From assembly GCA_946187095.1 (NCBI GenBank), contig CAMHPW010000108.1, forward strand, positions 1 through 5,116: DNA of 5,116 nt, in the 5' to 3' direction. Made by a program: the position numbers and the translations under genes. The notes beneath the pieces were generated by a model. That model was given only the letters and a program-made list of their open reading frames with translations, searched no databases and was not told the origin of the DNA. Numbering within the stretch: the stretch's first letter is position 1; each line of letters begins with the position of its first letter. This stretch comes from an uncultured Clostridia bacterium. GTDB lineage: Bacteria; Bacillota; Clostridia; Oscillospirales; Acutalibacteraceae. Shown piece after piece: positions 3 through 5,114 of this stretch.

Positions 3-263
3 TACATCAGCAGGATTAAATTCATAATACCAAACCTCTTTATTTATCGCTGTGCTACCCTGTTTAGTTCTTAAATGTGTATTACTATAATTTGAATCAT
101 GATAATTCACACTTTTCCAACCGCTATAGATATAATTTCCCTCGTTGTCAGGATCAGGTTTACGCAAGTTGATCTGACATGTTCCCCAGGAACAACTCAA
201 ACTTTGGTTATTATGGTAATATGTCCCCGGTTTTTCAAAATAAATACGATTAGGAACTGTCCA
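3..263 (-). repeat. Module R7, partial AT-rich carbohydrate-binding-like repeat
   Basis: Residues 1618-1704, cut by the window edge. RIYFEKPGTYY (1623-1633) parallels FIYFKKPAGW of R3, with Tyr in place of Trp. A CSWGTC pair of cysteines (1641-1646) and a Trp-rich middle follow. The last visible strand EVWYYEFNPADV (1693-1704) resembles the 'yy..vP.dv' strand that precedes the F.NNG turn, so the module probably ends shortly outside the window. Its DNA is noticeably AT-richer than the rest. Confidence 0.5.
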
Positions 264-3200
264 ATCGCTACCACCTGAACTATCCCACTTATAACTAATG
301 GTGTTGGAATCTGTTTGATACAAGACGGGCGTATCACTTGGAGTATTGCCCTCAAATGTCGGTGTCGCCGCTGTCGGCAATGTCGCATACGGCTCTACAT
401 CTATATAACGTGTCAGCGGTGCATTGTTCTCTTTATTGATACTGTCCGCTGTCTGTGAGAAAGTTTCCTGCTGTTCCTCTCCCGAACTGTACGGATTTGT
501 CGGCTGATCTATCTCCGTAAAGATGGGATATATCAGACTGAGTGCATAGGCACTGTCGGAATCTCCCGTTGAAGCGATTCTGTACTCCATATTTCCGAGC
601 GTGTAATCCTTCTTACGAGCCGAATAACTGCTGCGTAACGGATAAATCGGATATGCCGTGTCGGAATGTTTGGCAGAATCGTTATCTCTCAACTCGAAAG
701 AAGCCGCATTTGTCGGAATGGAAATTCTGTACCATGTACCGACTGCATCTGTCACTGTAGTCGTTTCACCCGAAATTGCCGTACCGTCCGCCTGTGAAAG
801 CGTTCCCAGCTTAACGGCACTTATCTCCGTTTCCGAAGATGTATTTGTGATTGCTGTACCGTCTTTGTCTTTGAATACAACACGCATATTATCCCATGTA
901 TTGCCCTCGGCAACAAGATAGAGATAATCTCCTCGTGCATCTCCAAAGGTATCATTGGCGGCAGATAAACCACTGCTGTTGATATAATTACTGTTTACAG
1001 GCCATGTCAATGACAATGTACTGTTGTCACTGTTTGTATCATAGATCATGTCGCCGTTGGTAAATGCCTTTGTCGTTCCGGAAGTTGCCTGCGGATAGAT
1101 GTCATAATGCCGTGTGGTATCTCCCATGCTGATACTGAATGAAACCGCATTAGCAGGGATTTCCTTACAAATCCATTCTATTCCCGTGGGAGAATCTTCA
1201 CGCTTGAATGCCGGATATTCTTTATCATCTGCCGTAATGCGTTCACCGCCTGCGTCATAGAACTTAAACTTGATGTTATGGAAATTGGCAGTGTCCCAGT
1301 TACCTGTATTCTTTATCCATACACAATCATTTGTATCGTTATGTGTACGGATAGTGTAATCAATACCCTCGCTTTGTGCTGTCGAACCTGTAACAGCCGT
1401 TTCATGTACTGTCACGGTTTCTTTTGGTGAAACAAGTTCCAATGCAGTACGGCTCTTGATTTCATAGACCTGATAGCCTGTTGTCGTTGTGGCACTGTCA
1501 ACAGTACCATGCTGCAATATCGGATAAATACCGCTGGCTTTGCCGTCATTTTTGTTATTGCCGTTGTTAATGGCAAACTTGGCGGCATTACTCGGAATCG
1601 GTATCCTGAAATACTGATAACCGTTTTGTGTACCGGCATATTTCATCACATAGCCCTTGCCGGTCTGGAGAATCGCACCGCCGCTTGCATTATAGAATGT
1701 AATATGGATATCGTCCCAAAGGTCTGCATTGTTATTCTTGATGTAGAGATAATCGGCATTGTCAAGACTTGTCGTTGTACCGTTGCCGTCAGCCCTGCGG
1801 AATACATAGGTTTTGGTAGATTCCACATTATCGGCTTGCTGCCATTTGCCGCCGTCCTTGTCATAAGCATAGCCGGCAAACAATTCAACCATCTTGGATT
1901 CATTTCTGCCGCCGTCACCATGATAATAACCTGTCTGCGTACCATTGCCGCTGCCGACCATGCCGTCACTGAATATGATCTTGCTGTAGTTGGTTCTGTC
2001 GCCCATCGGCAAACGGAATCTGTAAATCGTACTGCCGTTGGCATCTTTGAAAGTACTTCCCGGCATAAGCGTCATATTGCCGATACCTAAAGCAAATTTG
2101 CTGTAAGAATCATGGTCTTTATTCGGATAATAAACTTCACTTTCATAAGGAATCACGCCCGGCCATATCGAATATACGGCACGCTGCCAGTTATTCGCCC
2201 TCAAATCGCCGCCTGCATAGAAATATGCATACACATGATTTTTCCAGCCGGCAGGCTTCTTGAAGTAGATGAAATCGCTGTCACTTTCCACTGCAAAGGC
2301 GGAGGAAGTATCATTGATATTATCTCCTGCCTTGCTGATATCGGCAGAGCTCCAATGAGTCAGCTGTACACTACCGCCGTTGGCATTGGAATAGCCGTAG
2401 TCAGTACCTGTGCCACTCGATGCCAATTTCCAGTAGTTGTTGTAGTTCTTCTTGTTAGTTTCGGCAGCCAACGGTGTAATGGCAGTCTTATAATTGCCAT
2501 AGCCGCTGTATGCACCGCCGCTGACACTGTTATTGGTACCGTTATTGATACGGAAATGCGTTGCCCCTTTCGGAATGGTAATTTCATAGGTAAGGTTGCC
2601 GTAATATCCGTTTCCGTCTTTCTGATACTTTTCCGCATAATCAAGACCGTTAGCAAACTTACTGCTCGGGAACTGAATACGGTATGCCTCATCTGCATAA
2701 GCATAGGGTTCCATGAGATAGCCGGGGAAAGTTTCTCCGACCGGCTGAGTACCATTGGCATCTTTGAAGAATTCTACATGGAGGTTATCCCAGCAGTATT
2801 CACTGTTGCGGCGGAAAATAAGTTTCTGTGCGGTAGGTTCATAAGCTACACCGCTGTTTCCGGCTGTCTTTGTACCGTTATCATTGTAGTCTATCCAGTC
2901 ACCGTTCGGTACGGTATGACCACTTGAACTTATCGTGCTGACATTGCCCTGATTGTTATAAATCAAACCTTTCTTAAAGATAAATCCACCTTCGCCCGTT
3001 CTATTGGTCCAGCCATTGTAACCTTGGTGGAATTCAACTTTTGTTGCACCGTCAGGCGGCTGAATCTTCCACAATACTCTGAAGTCTCCACTATCATTGA
3101 CATAATATACAAAGCGTTCCCATACTTCAAAGCGTCCCATCCATGAACCGTCATATTTATAGAAATCAGCATAAATCGGATTTTCATAGATAAAGAGGTC

Positions 3201-5114
3201 ACCTTTTGTCATTCTTCCACCCTTGGTATTTTCGTTCATATAGAGATAACTGCTCGGGTGATTGACTTCATATCTTCTCCAACTGTTTGAACCGCCGTCC
3301 TCGAAATAGATATAGTCATTATCCGTTCTCGGAAGTATCCAGTTACTTTCATTGGCAGAAGGTACGCTCTCTGTACTGTAACCATAGGTATACTCATAAG
3401 TATATGTCGTCTGTCCCGATTGAGCGGAAGGTGTAGACGGCTCTGTATCGGTCTGCAAAGCATATGTCATTGACGGAGGTGTGACCGAACCGTTGAACGT
3501 ATAATACGGAATGGAAGTCATGACTTCGGGGCTGTAATACAGTTCAAATTCACCGCCGCTCAGGGGATCGCCATGCTCATTCTCTTTGAGAATGGTCAGA
3601 TCAACCGATTTTCTGGGGTTGGAATGTTCAATTCGTACTACCTTTTGCGTGTCGGAAATGATGAACGGTTTGCAGAAACTTGTTTCATAGCCCTCTGCCG
3701 CCTTTACTTCGACAAATGCATAACGTCCCATTATAATATCCTTGATCGGACCGATCTCACCAATACCGTTGGTAGTATAAGTACCCACCGGTGTACTATG
3801 CCAGTATGTCATGGTATCAGGCAATGCGGAATGATTGGCAATCATTGCCTCAAGTTCATCATCGGCAGCCTGTTCATATGCTTCTGCCGTTATGCTGCTG
3901 TCTCCGATCTCATGCGGTATCATCTTCAGCAGATAATAGGTCGTATCCGCAAGACGAATATTCGGATTTTCCTCATCCGTCTTGACAAGCGTGATCTCCA
4001 CTTCCTCTACTCTTTGGAGATTACCGATACGGTTGTCATTACTGCCGTTCTGGATAAATCCGCCACCATAGGTAACAGTAGCTGTCGTGGAAGTGTCATT
4101 TGTCACATCAAATGTCATGTAGGCACTTGCAAGAGAAATATTATAGTTGGCAGGTGCTTCAGTCTCTTGCAAATAATATGTGTTCAGCGGGAAGTGACAG
4201 AATTTGATCAGTCCGTTTTCGTCGGATATCACTTCATTTGAAGTCGATGTCCTGTCAAGGACATATTCTCCGTTAGTATTTCGGCTCACATAGACAGGGA
4301 TATTTGCGTCACCACAAGTCAGCCTGAACTTTGCACCCTCCAGAGTAATATCCTGATAGCCGTTACCGGTGTGTGCACTATAGGCATCATAATGGTTCTG
4401 GTCTATCTTGATGATCTGGGCATCGCCTACGATCTGCGTATTGGTAACTTCCACTGTCTGTGCAGAACCTGCAGCCGCTTCAACTATTCCGCCAGTGGGT
4501 GAATAAGATGCCGCATAACCTGTAACAGGCGTTTCAACTACCCTGTACTCATACTTGTTATTGTCATAATCGTAAACAGGCAGATCACTGTATGTCACGG
4601 ACTCTGCTACAGTTGCCGAATGAGTCGCTCCCTGAACATTCGTATCATTGAAATTGACATATTCCCCATCGACTTTTCTTTGGAGGTCAAACGTAACATT
4701 TGTATGCGAATACTTGCTCAGACTCAAAGCATAATCAGATTCATCTTTCCATGTCTTTGTTGCTGTTATTTCCGTCAAAGGTATGGTATTGGTAATATCA
4801 TATTCTGTCGCATACGTTTTGGTTTCACTGCCTATGGTTTCCTGTGCGGCAATATATTCCGCTGTGCCTGTATAGCCGTAATGCATATCGCCGTAAGTAA
4901 AGGCAGGTACAGGATTCAAAACAGGATATCCGCTGCTTTCACTCATTGAACCTGCTGTTCCTGTTTCACTTGCAGGATCTGATGCATCTTCATGGACATT
5001 ATAAACGATAACTTCACCGCTTTTGTCATACTTCGGCAAATTCTCAAACTTAACCGAAATACTGCCCTTGCTTATCTCTTTTGTTTCGGTGTAGCCTATG
5101 CCGCTATTACTCAA
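3..5114 (-). CDS. Giant multidomain surface adhesin-like protein, internal fragment (Cna_B/SpaA stalk plus CBM26-like modules)
   Basis: One frame stays open across the whole window: 1704 codons, with start and stop both outside. Reading N to C it holds a partial Cna_B domain (1-112), a complete Cna_B domain (113-228), two SpaA-type domains (229-368, 369-502), a half SpaA-type domain (503-545), a Thr/Ser/Pro/Tyr linker (546-597) and seven divergent carbohydrate-binding-like modules (598-1704). Cna_B and SpaA domains build stalks of Gram-positive surface proteins and pili, and self-crosslink through Lys-Asn isopeptide bonds helped by a Glu. An extracellular, wall-attached protein that contacts a glycan is therefore inferred. 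Cysteines are scarce and no hydrophobic membrane segment appears, which suits a secreted protein. No catalytic motif was found. The signal peptide, sortase motif, operon partners and regulation cannot be seen. The reading frame is essentially certain; the function is moderately supported. Confidence 0.96.
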   Translation of the reverse strand, partial: MSNSGIGYTETKEISKGSISVKFENLPKYDKSGEVIVYNVHEDASDPASETGTAGSMSESSGYPVLNPVPAFTYGDMHYGYTGTAEYIAAQETIGSETKTYATEYDITNTIPLTEITATKTWKDESDYALSLSKYSHTNVTFDLQRKVDGEYVNFNDTNVQGATHSATVAESVTYSDLPVYDYDNNKYEYRVVETPVTGYAASYSPTGGIVEAAAGSAQTVEVTNTQIVGDAQIIKIDQNHYDAYSAHTGNGYQDITLEGAKFRLTCGDANIPVYVSRNTNGEYVLDRTSTSNEVISDENGLIKFCHFPLNTYYLQETEAPANYNISLASAYMTFDVTNDTSTTATVTYGGGFIQNGSNDNRIGNLQRVEEVEITLVKTDEENPNIRLADTTYYLLKMIPHEIGDSSITAEAYEQAADDELEAMIANHSALPDTMTYWHSTPVGTYTTNGIGEIGPIKDIIMGRYAFVEVKAAEGYETSFCKPFIISDTQKVVRIEHSNPRKSVDLTILKENEHGDPLSGGEFELYYSPEVMTSIPYYTFNGSVTPPSMTYALQTDTEPSTPSAQSGQTTYTYEYTYGYSTESVPSANESNWILPRTDNDYIYFEDGGSNSWRRYEVNHPSSYLYMNENTKGGRMTKGDLFIYENPIYADFYKYDGSWMGRFEVWERFVYYVNDSGDFRVLWKIQPPDGATKVEFHQGYNGWTNRTGEGGFIFKKGLIYNNQGNVSTISSSGHTVPNGDWIDYNDNGTKTAGNSGVAYEPTAQKLIFRRNSEYCWDNLHVEFFKDANGTQPVGETFPGYLMEPYAYADEAYRIQFPSSKFANGLDYAEKYQKDGNGYYGNLTYEITIPKGATHFRINNGTNNSVSGGAYSGYGNYKTAITPLAAETNKKNYNNYWKLASSGTGTDYGYSNANGGSVQLTHWSSADISKAGDNINDTSSAFAVESDSDFIYFKKPAGWKNHVYAYFYAGGDLRANNWQRAVYSIWPGVIPYESEVYYPNKDHDSYSKFALGIGNMTLMPGSTFKDANGSTIYRFRLPMGDRTNYSKIIFSDGMVGSGNGTQTGYYHGDGGRNESKMVELFAGYAYDKDGGKWQQADNVESTKTYVFRRADGNGTTTSLDNADYLYIKNNNADLWDDIHITFYNASGGAILQTGKGYVMKYAGTQNGYQYFRIPIPSNAAKFAINNGNNKNDGKASGIYPILQHGTVDSATTTTGYQVYEIKSRTALELVSPKETVTVHETAVTGSTAQSEGIDYTIRTHNDTNDCVWIKNTGNWDTANFHNIKFKFYDAGGERITADDKEYPAFKREDSPTGIEWICKEIPANAVSFSISMGDTTRHYDIYPQATSGTTKAFTNGDMIYDTNSDNSTLSLTWPVNSNYINSSGLSAANDTFGDARGDYLYLVAEGNTWDNMRVVFKDKDGTAITNTSSETEISAVKLGTLSQADGTAISGETTTVTDAVGTWYRISIPTNAASFELRDNDSAKHSDTAYPIYPLRSSYSARKKDYTLGNMEYRIASTGDSDSAYALSLIYPIFTEIDQPTNPYSSGEEQQETFSQTADSINKENNAPLTRYIDVEPYATLPTAATPTFEGNTPSDTPVLYQTDSNTISYKWDSSGGSDWTVPNRIYFEKPGTYYHNNQSLSCSWGTCQINLRKPDPDNEGNYIYSGWKSVNYHDSNYSNTHLRTKQGSTAINKEVWYYEFNPADV
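264..629 (-). other. Inter-module segment and acidic Thr/Pro/Gln-rich linker
   Basis: Residues 1496-1617 separate R6 from R7. The first part (to about 1531, ending SLIYPIF) may still be a beta strand region of R6. After that the text is low in hydrophobic residues and rich in Glu, Gln, Thr, Ser, Asn and Pro, for example GEEQQETFSQTAD (1545-1557) and TPTFEGNTPSDTP (1584-1596), as expected of a flexible spacer. No family was recognised. GC content falls towards the low-coordinate end of this stretch. Confidence 0.5.
630..941 (-). repeat. Module R6, carbohydrate-binding-like repeat with expanded Thr/Ser loop
   Basis: Residues 1392-1495. DYLYLVAEGNTWDN (1396-1409) is the shared start, then MRVVFKDKDGTA (1410-1421). 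A long loop rich in Thr, Ser and Ala (about 1422-1458) separates it from WYRISIPTNAASFEL (1461-1475). The turn has lost NNG and reads RDND, and the module closes with YPIYPL (1488-1493). It is followed by a KKDYTLGNMEYRI segment and then a linker. Confidence 0.6.
1080..1373 (-). repeat. Module R5, carbohydrate-binding-like repeat with altered NNG turn
   Basis: Residues 1248-1345. The shared strand is DCVWIKNTGNWD (1263-1274), with Trp replacing the usual Tyr. It is followed by IKFKFYDAGGE (1281-1291), then WICKEIPANAVSFSI (1314-1328) and the ending DIYPQ (1338-1342). The turn that reads INNG in R2 and R4 is ISMG here. The match to R4 over these blocks is clear despite low identity between them. 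Cys1264 and Cys1316 lie in two different core strands. Confidence 0.6.
1515..1820 (-). repeat. Module R4, compact carbohydrate-binding-like repeat
   Basis: Residues 1099-1200 give the cleanest version of the shared pattern. DYLYIKNNN (1121-1129) is followed by LWDD (1132-1135), then IHITFYNASGG (1136-1146), GYVMK (1154-1158), YFRIPIPSNAAKFAINNG (1168-1185) and an IYPIL ending (1196-1200). The order strand, Trp, 'FY-A-G', 'IP..A..F', 'NNG' follows that of starch-binding modules, although the WPG box of R3 is replaced by GYVMK. A segment TTGYQVYEIKSRTALE then leads to R5. Confidence 0.65.
1920..2288 (-). repeat. Module R3, best match to a family 26 starch-binding module
   Basis: Residues 943-1065. 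The order of motifs fits CBM26 as I know the family: DFIYFKKPAGW (947-957), then VYAYFY (961-966), then a WPGV box (984-987). A strand IYRFRLP (1030-1036) follows FKDANG (1023-1028), and the end reads KIIFSDG (1045-1051) with a Gln-Thr pair at 1060-1061, as in the usual 'viFnnG..qT' ending. Between WPGV and FKDANG is an insertion of some 35 residues, rich in Tyr, Ser and Asp. CBM26 modules bind alpha-glucans through surface aromatics; here Tyr950, Trp957, Tyr962 and Trp984 are candidates. The ligand is not shown by the sequence. Confidence 0.6.
2463..2849 (-). repeat. Module R2, carbohydrate-binding-like repeat
   Basis: Residues 756-884. Its shared strand is KLIFRR (764-769), followed by CWDN (774-777), then HVEFFKDANG (779-788). 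GYLME (798-802) matches GYVMK of R4 at nearly the same spacing from the Trp (23 versus 21 residues). The strand AYRIQFP is followed by an insertion of roughly 30 residues, and a second similar strand TYEITIPKGATHFRINNG (842-859) completes the motif. The ending AITPL corresponds to the YPI/YPL endings of R4 and R6. The doubled strand suggests an internal duplication or a lengthened loop. Confidence 0.65.
2895..3323 (-). repeat. Module R1, divergent carbohydrate-binding-like repeat
   Basis: Residues 598-740. It starts with the shared strand DYIYFE (600-605), followed by Trp612 nine residues after the second aromatic. The centre is unusually aromatic (WMGRFEVWERFVYYV, about 659-672). The later strand WKIQPPDGATKVEF (682-695) corresponds to the 'IP..A..F' strand of the other modules, with a following HQGYNG (696-701) in place of the INNG turn. 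It is longer than R4-R6 and is the least typical of the better-preserved copies. Carbohydrate binding is inferred only from its relatives in the array. Confidence 0.55.
3324..3479 (-). other. Thr/Ser/Pro/Tyr-rich linker with alternating tyrosines
   Basis: Residues 546-597 join the stalk to the module array. The segment is rich in Thr, Ser, Pro and Gln (for example TDTEPSTPSAQSGQ), typical of an extended extracellular linker. It also holds a strand in which Tyr occupies every second position (571, 573, 575, 577, 579), so all five side chains would lie on one face of a beta strand. No known family was recognised. Confidence 0.65.
3480..3608 (-). other. N-terminal half of a fifth SpaA-type domain (D5), second half not seen
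   Basis: Residues 503-545 restart the SpaA pattern directly after D4. They read SVDLTILKENEHG (503-515), with Lys510 in the donor position, then DPLSGGEFELYYS (516-528), a very good match to the family's 'pL.GAeF.Ly' strand. What should follow within about 60 residues is the 'y.l.E..AP.GY' box and an Asn-containing final strand. Neither is present anywhere in the remaining 1159 residues of the window. Either this domain is truncated, or its missing half lies beyond position 3 and the whole module array is a loop insertion within it. Confidence 0.7.
3609..4010 (-). other. SpaA-type isopeptide domain with a helical-looking insertion (domain D4)
   Basis: Residues 369-502 begin with VEITLVKTDEENPN, giving Lys378 as predicted donor, followed by LADTTYYLLK (388-397), equivalent to the 'l.GA.F.L' strand with Ala-Asp-Thr replacing Gly-Ala-x. 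A stretch of about 30 residues (406-434) rich in Ala, Glu, Asp and Gln looks helical and is not typical of the small SpaA fold. The domain then resumes with YTTNGIGEIGP and RYAFVEVKAAEGYE (464-477), the 'Y.fvEv.AP.GY' box with Glu469. It ends in VVRIEHSNP, where Asn499 is the candidate acceptor. It follows D3 without a linker, consistent with a continuous stalk. Confidence 0.8.
4011..4430 (-). other. SpaA-type prealbumin-like isopeptide domain (domain D3)
   Basis: Residues 229-368 match the SpaA (major pilin) repeat fold. It opens with AQIIKID, where Lys236 is the likely donor. Next comes LEGAKFRL (258-265), the family's 'l.GA.F.L' strand, then SDENGLIKF (297-305), the 'T.enG...f' turn. YYLQETEAPANY (313-324) is the diagnostic 'Y.l.E..AP.gY' box, with Glu317 as predicted catalytic residue. 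The acceptor is unclear: Asn361 and Asn365 both lie near the final strand, which reads less canonically than in D2. Two cysteines, 267 and 306, fall in strands of this one domain, which is unusual in such a cysteine-poor protein. The family call is strong; bond formation is inferred. Confidence 0.85.
4431..4778 (-). other. Complete Cna_B-type isopeptide domain (domain D2)
   Basis: Residues 113-228 carry every Cna_B landmark in order. ITATKTWKDE (116-125) is the family's opening 'v.kvW.d' strand, with Lys120 as the predicted isopeptide donor. VTFDLQRKVDGEY is the second strand pair. A Tyr-x-Asp-Leu-Pro strand ('YSDLP', about 175-179) follows, then YRVVETPVTGY (190-200) with Glu194 as the predicted catalytic Glu. 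The domain closes with VEVTNT (221-226), where Asn225 is the predicted acceptor. Length is close to the usual one for the family. It should be a rigid, protease-resistant stalk unit. This is the most confidently assigned domain in the window. Confidence 0.9.
4779..5114 (-). other. Partial Cna_B-type isopeptide domain (domain D1)
   Basis: Residues 1-112 look like the C-terminal part of a Cna_B (collagen-adhesin B) domain, with its N-terminal Lys strand outside the window. Visible signatures are FENLPKYD (about 23-30), matching the family's central 'LP.Y' strand, then a strand ending NVHED in which Glu42 sits at the usual catalytic Glu position. The final strand is EYDITNT (104-110), the classic 'VTNT' ending, where Asn109 would accept the isopeptide bond. 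The segment between Glu42 and Asn109 is about twice as long as normal and rich in Ser, Gly and Thr, so it probably carries a loop insertion. The assignment rests on motif order and on the clear Cna_B domain directly after it. Confidence 0.75.

Follow-up and report, generated by a model that had tools for sequence, protein, structure and literature searches.

We analyzed a 5,116-nucleotide stretch of DNA (hereafter, the window) that is the complete contig CAMHPW010000108.1 of an uncultured Clostridia bacterium, and found that the giant modular protein it encodes in part, which is likely secreted and comes from a lineage that degrades starch, carries an array of diverged modules that is real, old, and ordered. 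The host assembly (GCA_946187095.1) is fragmented, with 1,685,873 bases in 316 contigs and 83.3% completeness, and the window holds one stop-free open frame that runs off both contig ends. An earlier reading of the sequence (the original prediction) had proposed seven tandem modules, R1 to R7, within this frame. We consider it likely that R1 to R6 form a series of six related modules whose order is fixed, with a predicted beta-sandwich fold of the type found in carbohydrate-binding module (CBM) families CBM25 and CBM26, in a giant protein that would hold starch. The features are listed below, with hhalign probabilities that include comparisons to a CBM26 set (68 copies obtained by expanding four seeds, the seeds lying in proteins of the same family that have a CBM26 above the Pfam cut-off):

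3..5114 (-): open frame of 1,704 amino acids, fragment of a giant modular protein
2919..3329 (-): R1, residues 596-732, CBM26-type module; hhalign 95.9 to R3 and 91.7 to the CBM26 set; 84.6 on match columns
2400..2843 (-): R2, residues 758-905, CBM25/26-like module with an invariant His, H779; R4 profile on R2, E 6.5e-13; hhalign R2-R4 99.2
1821..2288 (-): R3, residues 943-1098, CBM26 module with a predicted Tyr-Tyr-Trp platform; hhalign 99.6 to the CBM26 set; Pfam CBM26 24.0 bits
1407..1769 (-): R4, residues 1116-1236, predicted CBM25/26-type fold; invariant His H1137, 36/36
975..1343 (-): R5, residues 1258-1380, CBM25/26-like module; R5 profile matches R4 (4.3e-19) and R6 (8e-18)
507..947 (-): R6, residues 1390-1536, CBM-like module; platform mostly lost
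3..263 (-): R7, residues 1618-1704, truncated by the contig end; no convincing kinship to the other copies

A protein search with residues 590-1704 yielded 16 relatives, and a scan of species genomes yielded 16 loci, of which 13 bear the title uncultured Ruminococcus, 2 Ruminococcaceae, and 1 Clostridiales. For every slot we derived a profile, drawing on 38 sequences that comprise the 16 proteins plus the longest frames from 19 loci, with each region placed in one slot only; 35 of these sequences carry a slot above 50 bits, and L021o1, L024o1, and L025o1 do not. When the profiles were run on the window (E-values are from a one-protein search), that of R2 matched R4 (3.9e-17), that of R4 matched R5 (4.7e-11) and R6 (7.2e-14) as well as R2 (6.5e-13), and that of R6 matched R4 (1.1e-11) and R5 (4.9e-10). 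The hhalign comparisons resolved two tight sets, R2/R4/R5/R6 (probabilities of 95-99.7) and R1/R3 (96-97), which are joined solely through the CBM26 set. Probabilities to the CBM26 set were 99.6 for R3, 94.8 for R4, 91.7 for R1, 88.5 for R2, 77.5 for R5, and 75.6 for R6, and in the reverse direction they were 99.6, 93.6, 89.1, 81.6, 69.2, and 61.6, respectively; R7, at 0.2, showed no such similarity. Four SpaA and linker segments of the same protein, taken as controls, stayed below 1% against every R copy and against the CBM26 set. Decoys with shuffled match columns, which preserve composition, never reached the real score for any R copy (0/60 each), and the four control segments fell within their own decoys, of which between 1 and 15 per 60 equalled or exceeded the real score. 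An earlier, flawed run, in which all alignment columns were shuffled, gave a few very high decoys of up to 134 bits and placed decoys at or above the real score for R4 (1/40), R5 (2/40), and R7 (6/40). Judged by these profile comparisons, R1 to R6 are two homologous sets, each of which matches CBM26 modules found in these proteins. The original prediction expected all seven copies to be mutually similar, which held for R1 to R6 within the two sets and failed for R7, and its view of old duplications under structural constraint is borne out for R1 to R6 by the hhalign sets, the matches to the CBM26 set, and the clustering by slot described below.

The gathering score of Pfam CBM26 (PF16738), 28.1 bits, was reached neither by the whole protein (10.5 bits) nor by R3 alone (24.0 bits). 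R3 is nevertheless near this threshold, so the description of the pattern as previously unlabelled does not hold for every copy. All 12 of the 12 R3 copies compared to Pfam CBM26 matched it at E <= 1 (best 3.4e-8), as did 5 of 15 R4 copies (best 0.0011). Pfam CBM25 (PF03423) had no match in the window up to an E-value of 10.

We rejected R7 as a seventh copy. It has one homologue among the sequences compared, its hhalign probabilities were 0.2-0.9, and the predicted local distance difference test score (pLDDT) of the model there was below 50. The counterpart of R7 in that homologue (P0001), a longer copy, scored -2.9 bits against the CBM26 set. The real score of R7 (11.5) did exceed the top of its 60 match-column-shuffled decoys (7.6), which at most hints at kinship. 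Slot 7 in relatives holds one to three CBM26-profile matches in 18 of the 21 sequences in which the slot is complete.

The motif pattern first described for these modules was largely recovered. The aromatics at 603, 767, 950, 1124, 1266, 1399, and 1625 are all as named, as are the six Trp residues at 612, 775, 957, 1133, 1273, and 1407. The proposed common start, D-[YFC]-[ILV]-[YW]-[FIL], is strict in R1, R3, R4, R5, and R6, whereas R2 (QKLIF) and R7 (NRIYF) fit it loosely; the strict pattern occurs five times in the protein, whereas 2,000 shuffled versions of the protein averaged 0.02 occurrences and never exceeded 2. Two further motifs had been assigned to most copies, which is slightly generous: IP-x-[NG]-A-x-x-F is present in four of seven (R2, R4, R5, and R6), and F-x-[DN]-A-x-G stands at the equivalent place in three of seven (R2, R4, and R5) and also occurs at 1022 and 1390, both nonequivalent places. 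YPI-like text does close three copies, R4, R5, and R6. Overall, the original observation was confirmed, and its interpretation was supported in part.

The slots recur in a consistent order. R1 to R6 follow one another in 26 of the 33 sequences that hold at least three slots. The other 7 are fragments that start with R3 or R4, and in them the best R2-like match lies downstream; we read that match as a later copy. Beyond slot 7, weak R2-like, CBM26-like, and R2-like stretches appear in most of the eight sequences printed. In a tree built on 56 modules drawn from 14 proteins (13 of the 38 sequences plus the window), R2, R4, R5, and R6 group by slot and need 3 label changes, which is the minimum possible; R2 and R6 form single clades, and R4 and R5 do not. 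Since modules group by slot across proteins, the duplications predate the split or spread of these proteins. Each slot has its own conserved sequence, and the slots are not interchangeable repeats.

Conservation of the order does not mean conservation of function, as judged from the residues at the binding platform. We mapped the CBM26 platform positions via the profile alignments; counts below include the window’s own copy, are of sequences and not of independent events, and exclude rows gapped at the position (1 for R3, 2 for H779 of R2, 8 for Y1300 of R5, and 1 for R6). The platform (Tyr, Tyr, Trp) maps to three residues of R3:

2229..2231 (-): Y962 of R3, predicted platform residue, 33/33 copies
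2223..2225 (-): Y964 of R3, predicted platform residue, 33/33 copies
2163..2165 (-): W984 of R3, predicted platform residue; Trp in 32/33 copies, Tyr in one

R3 is the only module with the whole platform, which R1, R2, R4, R5, and R6 lack. R1 keeps the Trp (W665, 21/22 copies) and not the Tyr positions. A His occupies the first platform position both in R2 (H779; 27/27 slot-2 copies and 18/18 downstream R2-like copies) and in R4 (H1137), and the third position of R2 is aromatic in 25 of 46. R5 has lost both Tyr residues and retains an aromatic at the third (Trp) position (Y1300, 23/25), and R6 has an aromatic at the first position in 7/35 and at the second in 0/35. The Trp is known to be important in another CBM26, that of Lactobacillus amylovorus (W32L; PMC6260227), and Sas20 domain 1 employs Y60 and W72 (PMC9112005). 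We infer that W984 corresponds to these residues. R3 is the best candidate for a starch grip.

R1 to R6 are predicted to fold as CBM25/26-type beta sandwiches, a prediction for which structural matches were obtained with R4 and R6. The nearest folds of the predicted R4 and R6 were CBM25, CBM26, and CBM41, in keeping with the initial guess of a CBM-type beta sandwich, and the predicted R5+R6 pair aligns to the tandem CBM41 2j44, though with a root mean square deviation of 12.4. A PDB sequence search with the R3 profile gave 0 matches up to an E-value of 10, and one with the R4 profile gave no CBM and four unrelated matches (best E 0.11). Two results lower our confidence in this reading: four of the five R4 models were poor, and the R1/R3 set has no direct hhalign match to the R2/R4/R5/R6 set (at most 19.6).

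Upstream of the array, the fragment carries two kinds of surface-protein domain, both above their Pfam cut-offs:

4440..4769 (-): Cna_B domain, best stretch residues 116-225; Pfam PF05738, E 4e-10, 40.4 bits versus a cut-off of 22.3
4077..4346 (-): SpaA prealbumin-like domain, best stretch residues 257-346; Pfam PF17802, E 1.5e-16, 60.7 bits, two stretches

The sole further Pfam trace in the window, up to an E-value of 10, was CBM26 (E 0.73, residues 949-987, within R3). Pfam found no catalytic domain in the window, NCBIfam gave no name to anything in it up to an E-value of 1, and Tandem Repeats Finder detected no DNA-level tandem repeat there, as expected at such divergence.

The host, a probable relative of Ruminococcus, encodes CBM26-bearing alpha-amylases, and its lineage is starch degrading. 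CBM26 occurs in 17 places of its genome (13 above cut-off), and alpha-amylase domains in 16 rows. On seven contigs (C12, C44, C70, C78, C87, C102, and C139), the open frames that contain the glycoside hydrolase family 13 (GH13) alpha-amylase domain and CBM26 have the same length, a pairing confirmed by Pfam on two of the seven. A single open frame on C70 (L048, G000:C70, 1249-6135) combines an alpha-amylase with CBM26, in two stretches, and with repeats of the Flg_new (Listeria-Bacteroides) type. The array itself lies on five host contigs (C108, which is the window, C41, C66, C99, and C209) and thus in five gene fragments, some of which could belong to one gene. On C209 (682-1011, L010), the R2-like match of a paralogue contains one in-frame TAA, and this copy may be broken or may reflect an assembly error. 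Within the genus, the R2 profile matched 27 of 64 genomes, 11 of them at E <1e-40. It matched 4 of 300 sampled family genomes, namely, the host’s own, a second from the genus (7.8e-4), and two from other genera (2.0e-6 and 9.9e-4), so the array is close to genus confined.

The longest open frame around an array match spans 8,379 residues (G003:C20; L042 and L043), of which 7,279 were read. Two relatives whose N-terminus is visible, L019 and L020, begin with a hydrophobic segment resembling a signal or anchor, and L020 has a fibro-slime domain above cut-off. At about residues 180-200 of its open frame, L020 also contains a CBM26-like piece (IWVHIW...TTSWP), a hint of modules preceding the array. 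The window has no C-terminus; at the 11 printed C-terminal ends of relatives there was no LPXTG sorting signal, Pfam found no domain above cut-off on the four ends searched, and no membrane segment was seen at the C-termini of the relatives examined. LPxT matches in relatives occur internally, and the match closest to an end (L028, 1460 of 1509) is without a hydrophobic tail. Nine proteins (L013, L015, L016, L018, L022, L023, L025, L026, and P0001) have similar end regions without an LPXTG signal (e.g., IVYTAQL, VFTAQL, or IVYTAKL near the end), and L020 and L024 stop earlier. The host genome has four sortase matches. A sortase match at L045 (G000:C155) adjoins an open frame whose end carries an LPATG signal with a hydrophobic segment; the host therefore has a sortase system, which the giant proteins seemingly do not use.

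Several explanations could account for such an array. Chance or compositional likeness of surface-protein sequence is highly improbable and is contradicted for R1 to R6: although Pfam names no copy in the window above cut-off and the two sets lack a direct mutual match, composition-preserving decoys stayed below the real scores, control segments of the same protein stayed below 1%, the slot order recurs, and the tree groups modules by slot. Alternatively, an old CBM26 array may have been co-opted as a beta-sandwich stalk, serving as structural spacers only, with binding left to the downstream CBM26 modules of relatives or to other proteins. The absence of a full platform from five of the six copies, the adjoining Cna_B/SpaA domains, and the further CBM26 copies downstream in relatives would all fit such a stalk. 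We nonetheless regard it as quite unlikely, since a pure spacer would have no need of the R3 platform kept in 33/33 copies (with one Tyr for Trp) and since the strand aligned with the platform carries H779 and H1137, both of them invariant. It is also possible, although unlikely, that the array binds not dietary starch but another glycan, such as glycogen, a host glycan, or a bacterial exopolysaccharide. The structural matches do include CBM41 of glycogen-degrading proteins (with R5+R6 placed on 2j44 at the high deviation given above), and the His-bearing copies depart from the CBM26 platform; the seven host contigs pairing GH13 with CBM26, however, point to starch, and the CBM26 trio is kept in R3.

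We favor a giant starch-holding protein. R3 and the downstream CBM26 modules of relatives would be its starch-gripping points, and R1, R2, R4, R5, and R6, with their changed or lost platforms, may be spacers or carriers of a different glycan site, which in R2 and R4 could involve the invariant His. The Cna_B/SpaA domains would form a stiff stalk. Given that the aromatic trio retained in one module likely serves to grip starch, the giant protein would hold onto starch. A bolder version, which we hold only tentatively and think doubtful, is that R2/R4/R5/R6 are a new CBM25/26-derived carbohydrate-binding family in which every slot has become adapted to its own feature of the starch granule. R3 would then grip by Tyr-Tyr-Trp and R2/R4 by a His site, R5/R6 would orient the chain, and the giant proteins, with open frames as long as the one of 8,379 residues, would read the starch surface like a comb.

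We found no description of this array in the open-licence literature, which does not prove that none exists. The closest comparators are CBM26 modules, namely, Eubacterium rectale Amy13K (6b15), Bacillus halodurans 2c3g, Ruminococcus bromii Sas6 (7uwu), and Sas20 domain 1 (7rft). Unlike these, the copies in the window fall under the Pfam cut-off, have a changed or lost platform in five of six cases, measure 121-156 residues as cut, with insertions, and stand beside Cna_B/SpaA domains. CBM25 comparators are B. halodurans 2c3x and Paenibacillus polymyxa 2laa and 2lab, in contrast to which the window has no Pfam CBM25 match. Tandem arrays have a precedent in the alpha-amylase of L. amylovorus, where five CBM26 modules bind starch (PMC8288039 and PMC6260227). 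Those five modules are identical and are part of an enzyme, whereas the copies in the window are highly diverged and slot specific. If our reading holds, the array is also an unusual natural series, with one fold in fixed slots and a binding site that is kept, altered, or lost, and the change of a starch-binding site could be tested in it module by module. The R. bromii amylosome (Sas20 and Amy proteins), the best-described Ruminococcus starch-adhesion system, likewise uses starch-adhesion proteins with CBM26-fold domains (PMC9112005), in a group to which the host is likely related. The amylosome, however, is built on cohesins and dockerins, while the host genome (83% complete) has no cohesin family match and the 38 sequences show no dockerin-like motif by the one pattern used. 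If our reading is true, uncultured relatives use another design, that of giant adhesins with ordered, diverged CBM25/26-type modules.
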